64,000 nt of DNA, taken from assembly GCF_021018745.1 (NCBI RefSeq), contig NZ_CP063845.1, positions 2,480,001-2,544,000 of the forward strand. Direction: 5' to 3'. The notes under the pieces are model-generated. The model had not been told where the DNA came from and did no database searches. It saw only the letters and a list, made by a program, of their open reading frames with translations. The stretch comes from Gloeobacter morelensis MG652769. GTDB lineage: Bacteria; Cyanobacteriota; Cyanobacteriia; Gloeobacterales; Gloeobacteraceae. Positions 18,882 through 27,089 of this stretch are shown piece by piece; positions within the stretch are counted from its first letter, which is position 1, and every line of letters starts with the position of its first letter. The position numbers and the translations under genes were made by a program.

Positions 18882-19077
18882 CGCAAATTTTTGGGCGGGC
18901 CGACGGGTTATCTGCCTCGCTTTGCCACTTATCGGGCAGGAGACGAGCACGGTGCTCGCCAGTTCGCCGATGTTTTCCCTCCTGTGGGCGTGTTTTGCAA
19001 AAGTGTGCCCGGGGACTGCCCTGATGGGTTGAAATGAGCGACTGCACGGGTGTATGCGCAGGCGACCGGCAATTTCT

Positions 19078-19881
19078 ATGTTCTTCAAATCAGCAAGTTG
19101 GCTGGCCGGGTGGGTGGCGGTGGGCCTGGGTCATTGTGAGCAGGCCCGGGCTTTTGCTTTGCGGGTGCTCGTCGAAGGCCCCAGTGCGCAGATCTCCGTA
19201 GCGGTCTCCGCGCCGGTTGACTATCGTCAGGACAATGGGGTGAGTGTGACCCTCAGTCCCGGACAATTCTTTGAGGTCAACCGCCACAATCTGGGTATGT
19301 TGAATCTGCCCGATGCTGCTCTGGCCCTGGTGGGCGGCCGGTGGTACCCGGAGGGAATGCGCTTTATCCGGCTTGGAGATGGAGTCGCAGCGATCAACCT
19401 CGTCGATTCGGAGAGTTATCTGCGCGGGGTGGTGCCCCGGGAGATGCCGGGAAGCTACCACCACGAAGCGCTCAAAGCCCAGGCGATCGCAGCGCGTACC
19501 TACGCCCTGACCAGTTGGCGACGGCGCAAGCACGGTCCCCACTACGACCTGGTGGATACGGTCATCGACCAGGTCTACGGCGGTTATGCCCGCTACGACG
19601 CGCGCAGCGGTAAAAGCCAGTGGTTGACAGACTCGCGCACCGACCGGGCGGTAGCGGAGACCCACGCTCTGGTGCTCGATTATTCACAAGTCGAAGGCAA
19701 CTACCGTGCCTGGGGCATCGCCGGGTGGACTAACTTTGGTGATTATCAATTGCCGGTACCCAAAGGCCGGATGCTCAGCCAGCAGGTCTCCCAGCAGATG
19801 GCCCGAACCGGCTGGAACTGCGCTCAGATCCTCTGGTACTGGTACCGCTCAGGAATCTATCAGTTGCCGAAGGAGGTGTAA
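19078..19881 (+). CDS. SpoIID/LytB-domain protein
   Basis: A 267-residue exported protein. An N-terminal signal peptide (MFFKSASWLAGWVAVGLG) is followed by a SpoIID domain with the signature LRGVVPREMPGSYHHEALKA and QAIAARTYAL. SpoIID is a lytic transglycosylase that cuts glycan strands from which peptides have been removed; cyanobacterial relatives act in cell-wall or septum remodelling. Here the C-terminal third differs from the usual GGxTE region, so activity is uncertain. I chose the ATG at 19078 over 19054 because it leaves a proper signal peptide. A structured leader element begins 17 bases after the stop. Confidence 0.8.
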   Translation: MFFKSASWLAGWVAVGLGHCEQARAFALRVLVEGPSAQISVAVSAPVDYRQDNGVSVTLSPGQFFEVNRHNLGMLNLPDAALALVGGRWYPEGMRFIRLGDGVAAINLVDSESYLRGVVPREMPGSYHHEALKAQAIAARTYALTSWRRRKHGPHYDLVDTVIDQVYGGYARYDARSGKSQWLTDSRTDRAVAETHALVLDYSQVEGNYRAWGIAGWTNFGDYQLPVPKGRMLSQQVSQQMARTGWNCAQILWYWYRSGIYQLPKEV

Positions 19882-19897
19882 ATCGTTTTCAGACAGA

Positions 19898-20070
19898 CAG
19901 CCATCTGGCTGGTGGGCGCGGCTCCAATAAAGCGCATCGGGAGTTGATCCCCACGCAGGTTGTCCTGCTGTGCAAGACCGCACCTTGAAAACCGAATCCG
20001 ACCGAGGACGACCCGACCGTCCAGACCGAAGTATTGCCTGAGGCGATGCTTCCGTCTGGACGGCAGGGTC
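19898..20070 (+). promoter_or_regulatory. structured leader element, copy E1
   Basis: Ordered parts: hairpin CAGCC-ATCT-GGCTG (19898-19911); GGGCGC plus GGCTCC (19914 on); CTGTGC, a six-base loop and GCAC forming a small hairpin at 19970-19983; then CTTGAAAACCGA to 19995; then a long stem at 20010-20070 (22 base pairs with one mismatch and two G-U pairs around a TGA loop, closed by GACCC/GGGTC). The same order occurs at 44826-45005 (+) and 32987-33151 (-). It lies 95 bases ahead of the 384-residue orphan gene. Confidence 0.7.
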
Positions 20071-20165
20071 AGACTATTTCACCAACGAAGTAGGCTTTCC
20101 ATTTCCCCCAGAAAGGCCGGCAACCGTCCGCGCCATTGTTCACCTCGTTCATTAATTCCTGACTT

Positions 20166-21320
20166 ATGAAACCTACTATTTTTGGTGTCGAGCCCTCCCA
20201 CTACTTTCCAATGAATTACGCGATCCAAGCTCTTGAAGAAGAAAGTGCTCCGGCAGCGGATGCCACTTTCACATTCGACGCTATGTTCCGAATTCCTGAC
20301 ACAATTCCGGAACGGCTGGTCCTCAAAGATTTGCATTTACCCGCCAGAATAAGCACTTTGCGGAATGTGGGTTCTGTAGACGCTAGAGTCATTGAAAAAC
20401 TCGAAGCCACGCAGAGCATCGGTGCCCTGATTGGTGCCTACGACAGAACCTTTGAGAGACGTGCTCTGATGATTGTTTTGCCGAATGCTAACCTGCGAAT
20501 CAGGTATAGCCCCCACCGCGGCAACCACTGGCAACACCTCTCATCTCTTGAAGGTCATGGAGCACAATGGCTGCGCAAACTTTGCAGCGAGGGCGAGTAT
20601 GTTGGTTTACAGTACCTGGCAATCCCTGCATATACGGTCGCAGCAGACCGTCTCTGGTTATCCGTCAGACAGAGTTACATCGATAACCACACCACCAACT
20701 TCGTCGAGCGATTGATCGCTCGGGTACCAAAGCTTTTGTACCTGTGTGCCGCAGATGCAAAACAAGGGGCGGGGGCAAACCAACTCTCTCGCCATATCCT
20801 AAAGGAACACCCAAATCATGCATTGACTGTGCGGGTCCGACCTGACGCACAGACCCTTTGGGCAGACCCCAGACAGCACGCAACCCTTGTTGAGGCGGAT
20901 ATCGAAGCAGCCATCCGTAAGGTCATTCTTGAAAAGCGGGTAATCTGCATTCCTGTAAATACCTACGGACAGTTCATCACGCTCTCAGGTAGCACGCCTC
21001 AAGAAAAAGAGTGCAGCAAAGCACTGCAAGAAATCCTCCATCCATCGCTGTCTTTTCTGATGCGTTCAGCCCGAACTTATACCCAGACCACAGTAGCGCA
21101 GATTCTGAAAGATCACCTGCTCAGGCGGGCAATCAATTCTGAATCAAAAGCTGCCCAAGAGGCGGAAGCATTGCATACCGAAGACACAGGGAACTTATGT
21201 ACCAGTCTCATAGAGGAAGACCTCACAGATGATGGAGGAGACGCGGCACTTGAGGGCATAGCTGACAAGCAGAAGCAGCCGAAAAAGCGGCGCACAAAGC
21301 GGGCCGCTGAGTCCGCATAA
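20166..21320 (+). CDS. orphan protein of 384 residues
   Basis: A soluble protein of mixed composition with lower GC at silent sites than its neighbours. Residues ~40-300 look globular (ERLVLKDLHLPARISTLRNV; GAYDRTFERRALMIVLPNAN; RVPKLLYLCAADAKQGAGAN). The last 40 residues are charged and end in a lysine/arginine-rich tail (KQKQPKKRRTKRAAESA) that may contact nucleic acid. No membrane helix, signal peptide or known motif was found. The gene is flanked by long hairpins on both sides: leader E1 upstream and 21339-21389 downstream. Function unknown; transfer from elsewhere is plausible. Confidence 0.7.
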   Translation: MKPTIFGVEPSHYFPMNYAIQALEEESAPAADATFTFDAMFRIPDTIPERLVLKDLHLPARISTLRNVGSVDARVIEKLEATQSIGALIGAYDRTFERRALMIVLPNANLRIRYSPHRGNHWQHLSSLEGHGAQWLRKLCSEGEYVGLQYLAIPAYTVAADRLWLSVRQSYIDNHTTNFVERLIARVPKLLYLCAADAKQGAGANQLSRHILKEHPNHALTVRVRPDAQTLWADPRQHATLVEADIEAAIRKVILEKRVICIPVNTYGQFITLSGSTPQEKECSKALQEILHPSLSFLMRSARTYTQTTVAQILKDHLLRRAINSESKAAQEAEALHTEDTGNLCTSLIEEDLTDDGGDAALEGIADKQKQPKKRRTKRAAESA

Positions 21321-21338
21321 CCCCGGTCGGATCGGCGG

Positions 21339-21389
21339 TACGGTTAGCGCAGATCCGGAAAGAATTTTTCTTTCCGGATCTGCACCGTA
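21339..21389 (+). terminator. long hairpin after the orphan gene
   Basis: A perfect 14-base-pair stem (GCAGATCCGGAAAG with CTTTCCGGATCTGC, loop AATTTTT) is closed outside by TACGGT/ACCGTA. It begins 18 bases after the stop at 21320. There is no T-tract after the stem, so it may protect or terminate the transcript rather than act as a classic intrinsic terminator. Confidence 0.55.
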
Positions 21390-21519
21390 TAGCAAAAATC
21401 TAATTTGTAGCGAGATACATGTTTATATAAATGCACCTATCCCTAGAATGGGCACACCAGCCCGCCCCAATGCCCACCACCCCATCACCCCACCCCTGAC
21501 CGGCACGGACGAGGCAACG

Positions 21520-22179
21520 ATGAAATTCTCCACACCACCTGCCCAGACCTCCTTCAACCCCAGTCGATGTGCATCGATGGACGCTGAAACTCCCGCACCC
21601 GCGCCGCAGCCGCCCGAGCATCTCTCGGCAGAAATCACGCAGCTTCTGGCGGGTTGGCACAAAGGTGATCGCCGGGCCATCGCCGAACTGACGCCGATTT
21701 TGTACTCTCAGTTGCGCATGCTCGCCCGTCGTCATCTCTACCGCGAACGGGCGAACCATACACTGCAACCTACCGCCCTGGTGCACGAGGCGTACTTTCG
21801 CCTCGTCGAGCAGACCCGCGTGCACTGGGAGAACCGTACCCAGTTCTTCTCAGTCGCCTCGCTGTTGATGCGGCGCGTCCTTGTGGACTATGCCCGCGCC
21901 CAGGGGGCGATCAAGCGCCAGGCAGGCACCCAGAAACTGGCCCTCGATGAAGCTGTGCACGTCCCGAGCCAGGGGCGTCCGGTCGATTGGCTGGCCCTCG
22001 ACGAAGCCCTCGACGAACTGGCCCGCATCGAACCCGAGTATAAGCGGGTGGTTGAATTGCGCTATTTTATGGGGCTCACGATCGAGGAAGTAGCAACAGT
22101 CATGGAAATCTCCCCCGCCACCGTCAAGCGCTACTGGGCCCAGGCGCGCACCTGGCTGAAGCAGCAGCTGGTAGATTAA
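21520..22179 (+). CDS. ECF-type sigma-70 factor
   Basis: A 219-residue ECF sigma factor of the Sigma70_ECF (PF07638-like) group. Diagnostic stretches are LYRERANHTLQPTALVHEAY (region 2), DYARAQGAIKRQAG and, in region 4, YFMGLTIEEVATVMEISPAT then VKRYWAQARTWLK. It directs RNA polymerase to a special promoter set. No anti-sigma gene is next to it, and this group often lacks one. The ATG at 21520 has a GAGG site; ATGs at 21448 and 21577 are in frame. It ends 25 bases before repeat copy B. Confidence 0.85.
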   Translation: MKFSTPPAQTSFNPSRCASMDAETPAPAPQPPEHLSAEITQLLAGWHKGDRRAIAELTPILYSQLRMLARRHLYRERANHTLQPTALVHEAYFRLVEQTRVHWENRTQFFSVASLLMRRVLVDYARAQGAIKRQAGTQKLALDEAVHVPSQGRPVDWLALDEALDELARIEPEYKRVVELRYFMGLTIEEVATVMEISPATVKRYWAQARTWLKQQLVD

Positions 22180-22204
22180 GACTCAGAATTTTATTGTTAT
22201 TTTT

Positions 22205-22445
22205 AAGACGCCCTGCGCACTCGCCTCTGTGCCGCAGTTGACACGCAACGCGTGCAGGCCCTGGAAGAATAAACCGAGCCAACGATCACCATCTCGTTCC
22301 TGTCCGTGCCCCCTCCTATCTGGGGGGTGTCGGGGGTAGCACGCCCCCTGACGCGGGGAGGTTGGAGAGCGCGAGAGGGGAACCCGAAGGGGGTTCCGCC
22401 TCTCGCACCCACAGATTGTCGTGCAAAGCCAACTGCCAAACCCCC
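22205..22445 (-). repeat. hairpin-rich dispersed repeat, copy B (inverted)
   Basis: The reverse complement of this stretch aligns with copy A (18415-18650). It keeps both hairpins (the GAGAGG/CCTCTC stem and the CGGGGG/CCCCCG stem) and the GGCCTGCACGCGTTGCGTG segment, with scattered changes and short indels. Between the copies lie the SpoIID-like, orphan and sigma genes. Divergence between the copies suggests an old event or different source copies. Confidence 0.72.
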
Positions 22446-22509
22446 AGATCAAATGCGCCCCCAGAACCGCATGCAAAGCCCACCGCCAGACACCCAGATC
22501 AAAACCGCT

Positions 22510-23418
22510 TTAAAGATACGCCTTGAAGATCCGGCTGGCTAAAATATCTGCTGCCTCAATCGTCATCAAATCCACCACCGCCAGCGGCTCCCCCATCCTG
22601 GCAAATAGACGGTTCGCCTGGCGTTTACGAAATTCGTCGATGGCATTTCGGATGCTGCGGGCATTGGCAAAGTACGTCAGCCGCGTGCACCGCTCGATAT
22701 ACCGTCTGAAGGCTTCTTCGGCTGCGGCACCAAGGCGGTACTGCTGGCGGGCGAGCATCAGAGCACCGATCGCAAACAACTCCTCATCGGTGTAATCCGG
22801 AAAAGCGACATGATTATCAATTCGGGAAGCAAGCCCCGGGTTGGCATCAAAAAACCGCGCCATCCGGTCTTTATAGCCCGCGACGATGACCACAAATTCG
22901 CCGCGGCGATTTTCCATCGCCTGCAGAAGCGTCTCGATCACCTCGCTGGTCTGATCGCGCTCACCGGCAGCCTGGTGTAGATAGTACGCTTCATCGATAA
23001 ACAGCACCCCACCCACCGCCTTATCGATCACCTGACCGGTGCGTCCACCAGTCAGGTCGGTGCGGCTAGCGGCGATCATATGGCCCTTTTGAATGTACCC
23101 AAGGCGATGCAAAATACTGGCCATGCGCAGAGCAACCGTCGTCTTGCCGGTGCCGGGCTTGCCGGTAAAGGACATGTGCAGGCCGGGAGCTTCAGAGGTC
23201 ATACCCAGTTTGCGGCGGGTGCGATCGATGAGCAAAAAGGCGGCGATTTCGCGAATGGCGGTTTTTACTGGCTGCATGCCGACGAGATCCCGCTCCAGTT
23301 CATCCAGGATGGCCTGGACCGCCGATCGGGCATACTCAGCCTGCAGATCCACCGCTTCGCCCGCCCCAGCAACCGCTGCGACCGAGGATGAACAGCCCGC
23401 AAATAATTCGGTTCGCAT
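22510..23418 (-). CDS. cbbX: CbbX-like AAA+ ATPase with shortened pore loop
   Basis: A 302-residue AAA+ protein close to CbbX, the activase of red-type Rubisco. Walker A is GKPGTGKT (86-93), Walker [13 protein letters not shown] (136-147), and the arginine-finger region is [20 protein letters not shown]. Between DLTG (121-124) and AVGG (134) about eight residues are missing relative to the usual VGQYIGHTAPK region, so the aromatic pore-loop tyrosine is absent. Cyanobacteria mostly use form IB Rubisco, and no Rubisco gene is near. The ATG at 23418 was preferred over a TTG at 23463. Confidence 0.82.
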
Positions 23419-23481
23419 AGATAAATAGATGCTCAAACGATCGGTTCTAACTCTAAGGGGCAAAATTCAAGGCCAACTCGT

Positions 23482-23685
23482 TCAAGCAGCCCGCTCGAAG
23501 GCATGGACCGGTTGCTCCAGAGCAACCGGTTCTGCGCACGGCACCAGCAGAATATCGAGTTGCTCCAGTGACAAAAAGCCCAACTGCCAGGCCACCAACG
23601 GCAGATGATCCCCGCCGCAGCGCGCGGCTGCAACGCGGCCGACAACCTCGAATTGCTGTGCGGAAAGCAGCGTGTTAAGCGACAT
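23482..23685 (-). CDS. small hypothetical protein
   Basis: A 67-residue protein (SLNTLLSAQQFEVVGRVAAA; PLVAWQLGFLSLEQLDILLV) with amphipathic helices and no membrane segment. The start at 23685 has a GGAA site; in-frame upstream ATGs would add up to 49 residues. It is 63 bases upstream of the CbbX-like gene on the same strand and may share its transcript. It is divergent from the FHA gene across an inverted repeat. Unknown family. Confidence 0.45.
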   Translation of the reverse strand: MSLNTLLSAQQFEVVGRVAAARCGGDHLPLVAWQLGFLSLEQLDILLVPCAEPVALEQPVHAFERAA

Positions 23686-23833
23686 AAAACAGTTCCAAAA
23701 AACACATTTGTCCATTGCAGCCACCACCACAACCTGTGATGGGTGCTTACTCAATAGAAGACGCGCGAAACAGCCTTCAATCGGCTCAACACCCATCAAA
23801 AAATACAGGATGTAAACCCCATCCCGGAACAAA

Positions 23834-23896
23834 CCCCCGGTGCGATCGCAATTTTTTGAGCACCGTACGGTTCATCGCGCACGATCGCACCGGGGG
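23834..23896. promoter_or_regulatory. 15-bp inverted repeat between divergent genes
   Basis: CCCCCGGTGCGATCG (23834-23848) and its perfect complement CGATCGCACCGGGGG (23882-23896), 33 bases apart. The palindrome ACCGTACGGT lies in the loop. The left arm includes a HIP1 octamer. It sits between the minus-strand gene starting at 23685 and the FHA gene at 23952, so it is a candidate shared operator or a transcript hairpin. Confidence 0.5.
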
Positions 23897-23951
23897 TCTG
23901 CCCTCTAGCTCTACAGAATGTTTCCACCTTCGAGCCCCCCGGGTGACCCCT

Positions 23952-24452
23952 ATGCCCATCCTGCAGATTGATGCCTTTTCAGCGCTCTATAAAGCGATAA
24001 GCGCCGTAGTTCGACCGATACCGGCTGCTGAACACCCGCCGCAACCCCTACCGCTGAGCGCTGCAAGGATACAGGCGAACCCTTCCCACCCTTACGCCAC
24101 CTATTTGCAGGACGCCGTGGCAGCACTGATCTATCTGGGCACCAATACCCGCCTGGAACTGCCCCTCCAGAGCGCCGTCTATATTGGCCGGGCCAACAGC
24201 CAGATTCCACCGGATATCGATGTAGGCAACGCCCCCGACTCGGCCTACGTCTCGCGCGTGCACGCGGTCATCCGGCTGATACCGGGTGGTACCTATACTC
24301 TGGAGGACGCAGGCAGCGCCAATGGCACCTACCTGAACGGCGAAGCGCTCAAGCCGGGCGCGCGCTTCCGGCGGCCGCTGGTATCGGGAGACATCATCGC
24401 CCTGGGTAAAGGGGAGCGCTGCCGGTTTATTTTTGTCACCGACGACAGCTAG
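23952..24452 (+). CDS. FHA-domain protein
   Basis: A 166-residue protein with a C-terminal forkhead-associated domain (residues ~70-160). The motifs are VYIGRANSQIPPDID, SRVHAVIRLIPGGTYTLEDA and GSANGTYLNGEALKPG (G-R, S-R-x-H and N-G signatures). FHA domains bind phosphothreonine and pair with Ser/Thr kinases; none is in the window. About 70 N-terminal residues have no known motif. The ATG at 23952 fits; the extended frame to 23715 crosses the inverted repeat and is unlikely. Confidence 0.87.
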   Translation: MPILQIDAFSALYKAISAVVRPIPAAEHPPQPLPLSAARIQANPSHPYATYLQDAVAALIYLGTNTRLELPLQSAVYIGRANSQIPPDIDVGNAPDSAYVSRVHAVIRLIPGGTYTLEDAGSANGTYLNGEALKPGARFRRPLVSGDIIALGKGERCRFIFVTDDS

Positions 24453-24644
24453 TGCAGTGCAAAACACTCGCCTTGATCCTGACCTGAGGCTGTGACTTTC
24501 CGGCCAGCTTCGCTTTACCCAGGGCGCGGCTCTGCAGCTGTCTATTTGCCCATCCGACCCCGCCGGATGGGCTGTTCCACTTCGAAATCCCCAAAACGAA
24601 ACAGGTTTGCTTTGATCTCATTCGGCGCAAATAGCGGTCTAAGC

Positions 24645-24697
24645 AGGCGCGCAACGGGCGATCCGCATCGGATCCCCGCATGGCGCGCCTGTTTTTT
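24645..24697 (+). terminator. terminator after the FHA gene
   Basis: AGGCGCGC pairs with GCGCGCCT around an inner GGGCGATCCG-CAT-CGGATCCCC hairpin, followed by a T-rich run. A second hairpin (GCCCATCCG/CGGATGGGC at 24548-24572) lies between it and the FHA stop. It separates the convergent FHA and PH-domain genes. Confidence 0.7.
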
Positions 24698-24704
24698 GCG
24701 TCGC

Positions 24705-25301
24705 TCAATCTTCAAAGTCGCCCGGATCCTCCAGATAACCCGCCACCTGCGGCTCCTGCAGTTGCCTGCGGCCGGGACGGCGCTGCAGGGCGGGGCGCAC
24801 CGTCATCTTGCGCCGCTCCGAAGCTGTCAAGATCGCCGCCTCGGTCGCCTCCAGAGCTTCGATCCATTTCAATTCGAACTCAGAGTCCTCCCCGGCCGTT
24901 TCGACAAAGATGGTCCCAAAGTCAAAGCCCAGCACTTTGGAAGATTCGACGTTCTGCAAATTGCTCAAATCGACATTGCGCCGACAGGGAGCGAGCACCC
25001 CGGCGCGGGTAACCAGGCGGTGGGTGGTGAGCACGTAGGCGGTGGTCAGCCAGCACAACCACTGCCAGCCGGTGAGGGCTGCTCCCCCCAAAGTCAACGC
25101 GAGCCCGAGCGGCACAGCGTAATCGATCATCTGCGGCGCAATCAGCCCGGCGAGCGGTAGCGAGGTGATCCCGGCGATGAGCACCGAAGGACCGGTGCTC
25201 ACGTACATCCAGACAAAAGGCCGGATCTCCAGCAGAACCGATTCGTCGTCGAAGAGCTTGACCCGGGCAATGTTGGTGGTCTTGGCGGTGAATTCTTGCA
25301 T
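24705..25301 (-). CDS. bacterial PH-domain membrane protein
   Basis: A 198-residue protein with two membrane helices near residues 35-60 and 65-85 and a bPH_2 (YdbT-like) domain. The domain shows TTAYVLTTHRLVTRAGVLAP, RRNVDLSNLQNVESSK and LGFDFGTIFVETAGED. Such proteins are membrane associated and of unknown role. The C-terminal 40 residues are basic and flexible. It is convergent with the FHA gene and 39 bases upstream of the next minus-strand gene. Confidence 0.82.
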   Translation of the reverse strand: MQEFTAKTTNIARVKLFDDESVLLEIRPFVWMYVSTGPSVLIAGITSLPLAGLIAPQMIDYAVPLGLALTLGGAALTGWQWLCWLTTAYVLTTHRLVTRAGVLAPCRRNVDLSNLQNVESSKVLGFDFGTIFVETAGEDSEFELKWIEALEATEAAILTASERRKMTVRPALQRRPGRRQLQEPQVAGYLEDPGDFED

Positions 25302-25340
25302 GGCGAGCCTTGAATAAAAGTACTGGCGCAGACTACCGGT

Positions 25341-26138
25341 TCAGTCCCGAGTGGAGACTTTGCCCTGAGGACCGATCCACACGAGTGTCTCGACGGCGGG
25401 CGGCCAGGGAAAAGGGCCGGCCCAGTAGGTGCAGCCGGGTCCGCAGGGAGTGCGCACGTACAGCTCGAAGTACCCCTTGCCCTCTACTTCGTCCACGCGC
25501 GTGTGCTTGATTTTTTGTTTGCCGTTGCAGACGACCGACTGCCCGACTTTGAAGCGCTGGGCCGCAGGCAGCGAAAACTCCGTAAAGCCGTTGAAATCGA
25601 AATTGACGTGATCGACCAGTTGGCCCAAAAAACAGCTGCTCAGCCCGAGGCTTTCCACCGTGTTGAGCCCGAGGCCAGGAATGTCGGCCAGCGGTATATC
25701 GGTGATGTCGGGAATCTTTTCTAGGGCCAGTGAGCCCAGACCGGCAAGCGAACCGATGGGACTATCCAGAAACCCGGCAGGCAAATAGCCCTGCGCTACA
25801 GCCTGGGACAGGGTGAGATTCCGGCAGGCGGCCGCCACCGGGCAGCTCGACTTGAGCGAGGGCACATCTTTGAGCAGCACCTTTGAAAGCCCCGGAAAAT
25901 CGCGCACACTCACCCCGCCCGCCCCGGCAATCTGCCCTAACTGCAACTTCTCAGAGCCGGGCAGGTACTGCAGCGACAGGGTCTGCAGCGCCTCGGGCAC
26001 ATCCTCTAAAAGCACCTTGCCCGGATCGACCGCCGGCGGTCCTGCCGCCCGCACCGCCAGCGAAGCGGCTCCCCAGGCCGCAACCGCCAGCGCCGCCGCC
26101 CACATCGGCAGCTTGCGGGCCATTCTCGGTATGTTCAT
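25341..26138 (-). CDS. secreted protein with degenerate leucine/proline repeats
   Basis: A 265-residue exported protein. A signal peptide (RKLPMWAAALAVAAWGAASL) is followed by repeated short units ending in IPGL or VPSL (FPGLSKVLLKDVPSLKSSCP; PLADIPGLGLNTVESLG), then a cysteine-bearing beta-rich domain (VVCNGKQKIKHTRV; TPCGPGCTYWAGPFPWPP). The family is unknown to me. Its signal peptide puts it in the periplasm or outside. It could serve the T4SS nearby, but only loose context supports that. Confidence 0.62.
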   Translation of the reverse strand: MNIPRMARKLPMWAAALAVAAWGAASLAVRAAGPPAVDPGKVLLEDVPEALQTLSLQYLPGSEKLQLGQIAGAGGVSVRDFPGLSKVLLKDVPSLKSSCPVAAACRNLTLSQAVAQGYLPAGFLDSPIGSLAGLGSLALEKIPDITDIPLADIPGLGLNTVESLGLSSCFLGQLVDHVNFDFNGFTEFSLPAAQRFKVGQSVVCNGKQKIKHTRVDEVEGKGYFELYVRTPCGPGCTYWAGPFPWPPAVETLVWIGPQGKVSTRD

Positions 26139-26411
26139 AAACCGTACCTGCGTGGAAAGATCTCAAACCATTCGAGGGCGATTCGTGGGCTGCCGGGTGG
26201 AAAGTGGAGCAGATTATTTCTTTATATAAGTTTATCTAAGCACCCAGATTGGCTCAGCAAGAGCATTTGAGCAACTGGAAAAACTTCGCGAAGAAAAAAA
26301 TCGCCGGCTTGTGAGCCGAAATGCGCCGGTGCTGCGCGCTTTTTTCTCGAGAGCGTTGCGCAACGGCTTTCACTATTTGCCTCACTGCCGTCGTTATATG
26401 GAACCTGACTT

Positions 26412-27089
26412 ATGAGCTTGCAACAGGCATGTCCAGAAGCCGCTTCAGCCCCTTTGCGCCGCGACGCCATGAGCGCCGCCATTCGCCGCACCCTCACCCC
26501 CGAAGTGGTCCGCTATCTGTGGAGACGCCTGCGCGGTTTCGGCTACGCCAGAACTATCGAACGCGACGAAATTGATCAGTACATTCAAATTGCCGCCTGG
26601 AAGGTCCTGCAGAGCGAACCGGAACTGGCGGGCCAGACCCATATGGTGGGCATCAAGATCTACAACAAACTGCTCGACCTGCTGCGCAACAGCGGTCGGG
26701 AAAAATTGGGCATGGGCCTGCGCAAGCAGACCGCCCGCTTCTGGCAGCAGACCGTTCAGGGCCTCAATCTGGATATTGGGGTGCGGGTGTACTGCCTGAA
26801 TGTGACTGCGACGCCTATGGACAAACTGGCGCGCGAGACGGTGCGCCGAGAACTGGTTGTGCAGTTGCACGCCCTGGGTAGGACAGCCCGCGGAGCCCAA
26901 CTGCAAAGCAAACTCCTGCGCGCCCGCGCCGAGCGGCTTACCACCCTGGTGGTGCGCTCGAAGCGGGTGCTCACACCGCTGGTGCGCCTGGCGGCCGAGG
27001 AGATGGGATCGTCCCTCGAAGGCATCCGGCTTTTTCAAGAGGCGGTCGAAGACTTCCAGCAGGAGCGGGGCGTCTCGCTGTGCGCTTGA
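26412..27089 (+). CDS. sigma-70 region-2-like protein, degenerate
   Basis: A 225-residue protein. Residues 50-100 (EIDQYIQIAAWKVLQSEPEL then YNKLLDLLRNSGREKLGMGL) resemble sigma-70 region 2 (the ...D..Q...W ... I..N...D..R pattern). The following helical part lacks a clear region 4. A last helix (LEGIRLFQEAVEDFQQER) ends the protein. It overlaps the GT-C gene by 10 bases, indicating coupling. The sigma link is inference; a plain helical DNA-binding protein is possible. An in-frame ATG at 26469 is an alternative start. Confidence 0.5.
   Translation: MSLQQACPEAASAPLRRDAMSAAIRRTLTPEVVRYLWRRLRGFGYARTIERDEIDQYIQIAAWKVLQSEPELAGQTHMVGIKIYNKLLDLLRNSGREKLGMGLRKQTARFWQQTVQGLNLDIGVRVYCLNVTATPMDKLARETVRRELVVQLHALGRTARGAQLQSKLLRARAERLTTLVVRSKRVLTPLVRLAAEEMGSSLEGIRLFQEAVEDFQQERGVSLCA

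Follow-up and report, generated by a model that had tools for sequence, protein, structure and literature searches.

A CbbX-derived AAA+ ATPase lacking pore loop 1 in a cyanobacterium with a form IB-like Rubisco

CbbX, like many other AAA+ unfoldases, is accepted to work by axial threading, the substrate being gripped by an aromatic residue of a pore loop. What, then, does a CbbX relative do when that loop is missing? The question is raised by a gene present on the stretch of DNA analyzed here (the window), 64,000 nucleotides long and taken from Gloeobacter morelensis MG652769 (contig NZ_CP063845.1, positions 2,480,001 to 2,544,000). The gene (22510-23418, minus strand) encodes a CbbX-derived AAA+ ATPase of 302 amino acids without pore loop 1, and its reading frame is open as far as a TTG at 23463. 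Our main reading, to which we give a probability of about one half, is that the product is a functional ATPase descended from CbbX, in which the parts of the pore that grip the substrate were lost and those that handle nucleotides, together with the fold, were kept. A naturally occurring CbbX of this kind, maintained by selection, would reveal what the ring does without threading, and offers a ready test of which actions of CbbX require the pore.

The window protein matches the CbbX of R. sphaeroides over its full length (3syk, E 4.8e-97; 3zuh, E 2e-96), and alignment with these two structures reveals a gap of seven residues that removes the Tyr-Ile-Gly pore loop 1. The region that reads QYIGHTAPK in CbbX is reduced to a short GGR turn, the deletion site lying at residues 121-127 (DLTGGRT; 23038-23058, minus strand). 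An earlier note on this DNA had reported that the pore-loop segment was missing and had put the loss at about eight residues: the loop is indeed absent, its size is corrected to seven, and the peptide quoted there for residues 121-137 was exact in letters and numbering. The same note had described the Walker motifs and the arginine-finger region as conserved, with which motif inspection agrees. Indeed, four motifs, which we take to be Walker A, Walker B, the arginine-finger region and sensor 2, are all in place on the minus strand: GKPGTGKT (residues 86-93; 23140-23163), VLFIDE (residues 138-143; 22990-23007), NPGLASR (residues 193-199; 22822-22842) and NARSIR (residues 252-257; 22648-22665).

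The pore is altered at a second place. Residues 152-157 (22948-22965, minus strand), which presumably form pore loop 2, contain QT where [YF]G stands after Walker B; this replacement is found in both copies of the gene carried by the genome (see below), and the 57 remaining aligned rows all have [YF]G, bar one G-to-A change. Canonical CbbX proteins, of which 38 were compared, share 112 positions at a conservation of 95% or more; the window protein keeps 93 of these and has changed 19. The changes are concentrated around the pore, as 10 of the 13 conserved positions in the two pore-loop stretches are lost (hypergeometric p 3.6e-7, for stretches chosen post hoc). Three positions of the lid, conserved in 37 of the 38 canonical rows, are also changed (R to C, P to T and R to E). 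The lid-bearing subdomain is the one that contains the RuBP site of CbbX, according to one report (PMC5385338), where the R. sphaeroides protein is also described as building spiral assemblies of high molecular weight without RuBP. With the lid altered in this subdomain, the window protein might be imagined as a structural or storage protein, forming a similar assembly poor in ATPase activity. We consider this a rather remote prospect, because a purely structural protein would not need the nucleotide motifs, and the window protein has retained the whole set, from Walker A and Walker B to the arginine-finger region and sensor 2.

To place the deletion among relatives, pore loops were read in each of the 137 rows of a comparison set, from which two fragments (L116 and L143) and several duplicates or loci outside the family (L001, L003, L016, L046, L048 and L069-L071) had been dropped before alignment. 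The gap is found in two rows, which are the two copies of a single genome, and is absent from the other 135. By comparison, the motif [QE]Y[IV]GHTAP[KR]T is carried by 72 of 72 canonical rows, contributed by 30 genomes of family f4 (of 34 f4 matches), both genomes of family f34 and 40 named loci; we judge f4 to be the picocyanobacteria, since named Prochlorococcus loci are among its loci. In the accessible portions of the openly licensed literature on CbbX, we found no description of a CbbX without the pore loop.

Structure prediction suggests what has taken the place of the loop. The AlphaFold monomer of the window protein, computed from a 59-row alignment, has a mean pLDDT of 92.9 and shows a helix (119-122), a four-residue turn and a second helix (127-134), with a pLDDT of about 96 in this block. 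In a control model of the Cereibacter CbbX monomer (38-row alignment), the equivalent block has a pLDDT of 63 and consists of a helix (98-102), a ten-residue loop and a helix (113-120). The solved structures closest to the window model are three CbbX entries (Z 29.4-31.1), the next one scoring 18.1. The model thus predicts, with confidence, that a short ordered turn replaces the flexible protruding loop of canonical CbbX. The pore might still be lined by Arg126 or by other residues, and one may ask whether a flexible client is still threaded, gripped by Arg126, for example, or by the altered stretch after Walker B. Such continued threading would agree with the retention of the AAA+ core and of the ring elements, and with the conservation of pore-side residues between the two copies; we find it doubtful all the same, as the predicted turn is short and ordered with nothing protruding, and as the [YF]G signature is lost too.

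The genome assembly consists of three contigs, of 4,921,229 and 172,328 bases plus a small one, and the 172-kb contig, probably a plasmid, bears the second copy of the gene (L046:17526-18434). The two copies are 92% identical as proteins and 87% identical as DNA over 830 bases (109 differences), and share the identical in-frame gap. By eye, the start of the chromosomal copy has no clear ribosome-binding site, and that of the other copy has GGAGG. A sequencing or assembly error at the window locus has a negligible probability, because the same in-frame gap occurs at two sites, with 109 differences between them over 830 bases. The earlier note had proposed looking for the deletion in relatives, and had linked a full loop in relatives to an error here: the deletion does recur, in the second copy and in none of the compared rows from outside this genome, and relatives outside it do carry the full-length loop, but the error that was to accompany this is ruled out by the second copy.

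Both copies, deletion included, are under purifying selection. Over codons 24-302 the dN/dS between them is 0.061 (24.8 nonsynonymous against 88.2 synonymous differences). Around the gap, in residues 111-145, there are 7 synonymous differences and no nonsynonymous one. Differences at third positions are unevenly distributed (28 of 150 over residues 31-180, and more at the ends), so that one copy may have received the gap from the other by gene conversion; even then, both copies retain an open and constrained frame with the gap. These values bear on the idea that the window gene came from a horizontally acquired cbbX and is now decaying. The genome has no red-type Rubisco, the distribution of the gene is patchy and its branch is long (0.86), all of which a relic would account for, but both frames are open, 93 of the 112 conserved positions are kept and the dN/dS is low. 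A pseudogene is therefore disfavoured, with the caveat of gene conversion, and we regard decay as very unlikely.

Descent from CbbX is clear in the trees. The window pair falls inside the CbbX clade in a quick tree (clade of 94 rows, support 100) as well as in a careful one built with the pore-loop columns excluded (clade of 48 rows, 100/100); in the latter, it groups with picocyanobacterial CbbX (97/91) at the end of a branch 0.86 long. CbbX and SpoVK are the best-scoring sequence families for the window protein. Against the CbbX equivalog model TIGR02880 (cut-off 459.25 bits), the two copies reach 395.7 and 401.9 bits; four of five canonical controls pass (525.1-550.8 bits) and the fifth, L113 from a Chloroflexota, fails with 433.9 bits. 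Against TIGR02881 (stage V sporulation protein K), the window protein scores 226.8 bits, under the cut-off of 422.95. Its distribution is sparse: a protein search at 1e-40 gave no match in the three further genomes that represent the genus and matches in two of the nine from the order, the second of which (G006) carries a different variant, and in a sample of 386 genomes from the phylum, 56 match at 1e-60. Among mobile elements, patterns derived from the window protein retrieved no relative from the viral contigs searched, and the matches found in phage records (11) and plasmid records (267, where the host's own or near records may be absent) are all below 60% identity.

If the gene is maintained, on what does its product act? 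Canonical CbbX serves red-type Rubisco, and rbcL adjoins cbbX in 36 of 40 named canonical loci; the window gene is not adjacent to rbcL. The genome encodes a single RbcL, ending in FEYEAVDKL, two residues beyond the latch Asp (the form names and the position of this residue being taken as described for known Rubiscos). This RbcL is 81-88% identical to those of 11 sampled cyanobacteria from outside f4 and outside the genus, 74-76% to the f4 RbcL measured and 54-66% to red-type RbcL, so the only Rubisco of the host looks like form IB from its sequence. A red-type Rubisco with an extended RbcL tail is absent from the genome, its one RbcL being short-tailed. Past the Asp, the tail has 10-13 residues in every one of the 38 red-type RbcL read, 5-6 in six sampled f4 genomes and 2 in eight f32 genomes. 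The appealing rule that without a red-type tail there is no pore Tyr is broken by one genome (G202), which has a canonical Tyr loop although its sole RbcL is short-tailed and form IB-like: losing the handle does not force the loss of the loop. A relative of that genome (G405; L068 and L217, contig C28) has a red-type rbcL, with a tail of 11 residues, beside a canonical cbbX. The window gene is also a warning that the label 'CbbX', in cyanobacteria whose Rubisco is form IB-like, should not be taken to imply an activase of red-type Rubisco.

Small-subunit-like domains of the host are found in RbcS and, four of them, within one frame of 673 amino acids, which from this arrangement we take to be CcmM-like. 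The genome also has a green-type activase-like gene: a match to the helical domain of green-type Rca occurs in the host, in all four genomes of the genus and in 6 of 9 of the order. It could be supposed that the window protein activates the resident form IB-like Rubisco independently of its pore, the top of the ring docking onto the enzyme and the inhibited sites being opened without threading. Its CbbX ancestry and the presence of this Rubisco are in keeping with such a role, as is the activity of CbbQO without a canonical pore aromatic (PMC4660213). We nevertheless hold it to be unlikely: the Rca-type match is already there, in the host and in all four genomes of the genus, the CbbX derivative is found in just one of these four, and CbbX requires both the pore Tyr and the RbcL tail according to published work.

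Published work also provides the key to our main reading. In bacterial and algal CbbX, the Y114A change leaves ATPase activity intact and abolishes activation, and deletions of the RbcL tail likewise abolish activation by CbbX (PMC5437159); several pore-loop mutants of CbbQ remain active (PMC4660213). From an ATPase-active, activase-dead Y114A and active CbbQ loop mutants, we infer that the ATP cycle and the ring may have been kept in the window protein and axial pulling lost. The steps would be as follows. Pore loop 1 would have been lost by the seven-residue deletion, and [YF]G after Walker B changed to QT. An ATP-dependent ring would still form, unable to pull a Rubisco tail through its pore as CbbX does, and a client would be bound on the surface of the ring and altered by an ATP-driven conformational change, as seems to be the case with the pore-independent CbbQO activases. 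This client would be something other than a red-type Rubisco tail, and maybe not Rubisco at all. The two preserved loop-less copies suggest another job or another way of working. The changed client or non-threading role put forward in the earlier note is thus the best available interpretation, because Y114A loses activase function and the host Rubisco has no red-type tail; function is deduced here from sequence.

Known systems resemble the window protein in part. With CbbX of R. sphaeroides (PDB 3SYK, 3SYL and 3ZUH; TIGR02880) it shares full-length homology, predicted fold, nucleotide motifs and clade, and it differs by the absence of pore loop 1, by QT in place of [YF]G, by a score under the model's cut-off and by a genome devoid of red-type Rubisco. 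CbbQ, of the CbbQO activases, is likewise an AAA+ ATPase related to Rubisco, and it does without the canonical aromatic of the pore (PMC4660213), but it belongs to a separate AAA+ family, 18% identical to CbbX (PMC4633670), requires CbbO and has a pore loop, with Leu. A natural change of the pore motif is described for Nannochloropsis CbbX, whose loop reads FVG (PMC3999925); there, however, the aromatic and the loop length are retained, and the RbcL tail of this alga is of the red type.

A different variant occurs in family f32, which we take to be the Nostocaceae. Of 217 f32 genomes searched, 47 had a match and 38 loops were read: in 38 of 38, Gly replaces the pore Tyr of these CbbX-like proteins (QG[IM]GQT; L049-L067 and L165-L194). 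Like the window protein, they lie in the CbbX clade, have lost the pore Tyr and score under the TIGR02880 cut-off (444.3 and 448.6 bits for the two scanned), and the RbcL of their genomes is form IB-like with a short tail (8 of 8 looked at). Unlike it, they have a pore loop of undiminished length, in which Gly stands for Tyr, and retain FG after Walker B. They group with the cyanobacterial CbbX of f34 (97/90), apart from the window pair. The best tree therefore separates the two kinds of Tyr-less protein and needs two changes of the pore Tyr; a single clade is 9.3 log-likelihood units worse and is not rejected by the AU test (p 0.268), so that two losses rather than one are favoured by the phylogeny, not proven. 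On this basis we would propose tentatively, and somewhat against the odds, that cyanobacteria with form IB-like Rubisco have turned a threading Rubisco activase into a non-threading AAA+ ring, possibly twice (by deletion and the [YF]G change in the window lineage, by Tyr to Gly in f32), for an ATP-driven task on Rubisco or another client. The variant found in G006, a genome of the same order as the host, has an HGMGET loop; its gene (L048) is located on a contig of 4525 bases (C297) and falls within the f32 branch, and transfer or contamination is therefore possible.

The surroundings of the genes were also compared, and no conserved partner pointing to a client was found in these neighbourhoods. 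At 19 f32 loci, the gene is accompanied by a small protein without Pfam match (15 of 19) and an M48 peptidase (11 of 19), neither of which was seen next to either of the two copies of the host. The neighbours of these two copies differ as well. Directly upstream of the window gene is a weak DUF2949 match (23545-23688, minus strand; 25.2 bits for a cut-off of 24.2), which we rejected as a specific partner because the host has 7 such matches and all 9 genomes of the order have some; an FHA-domain gene (23829-24452) lies upstream of it, in divergent orientation. When positions 19000-27000 of the window were compared with the three further genomes from the genus, the matches listed (at most 40 candidates scored in each) were short pieces, most of which belonged to a repeat element, and the gene was not covered by any of them. 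Downstream of the gene lies a copy of this element (22209-22445), together with a gene for an ECF sigma factor (21448-22179). The element, of about 210-240 bases, is present in tens of copies in the host and in 2 of the 3 other genomes of the genus, at 75-91% identity; none was seen in the third (G003) among the matches listed (at most 40 candidates). On the 172-kb contig, a CRISPR-like array (L046:12311-12861) comprises 8 copies of a 37-base repeat with a spacing of 71-81 bases.
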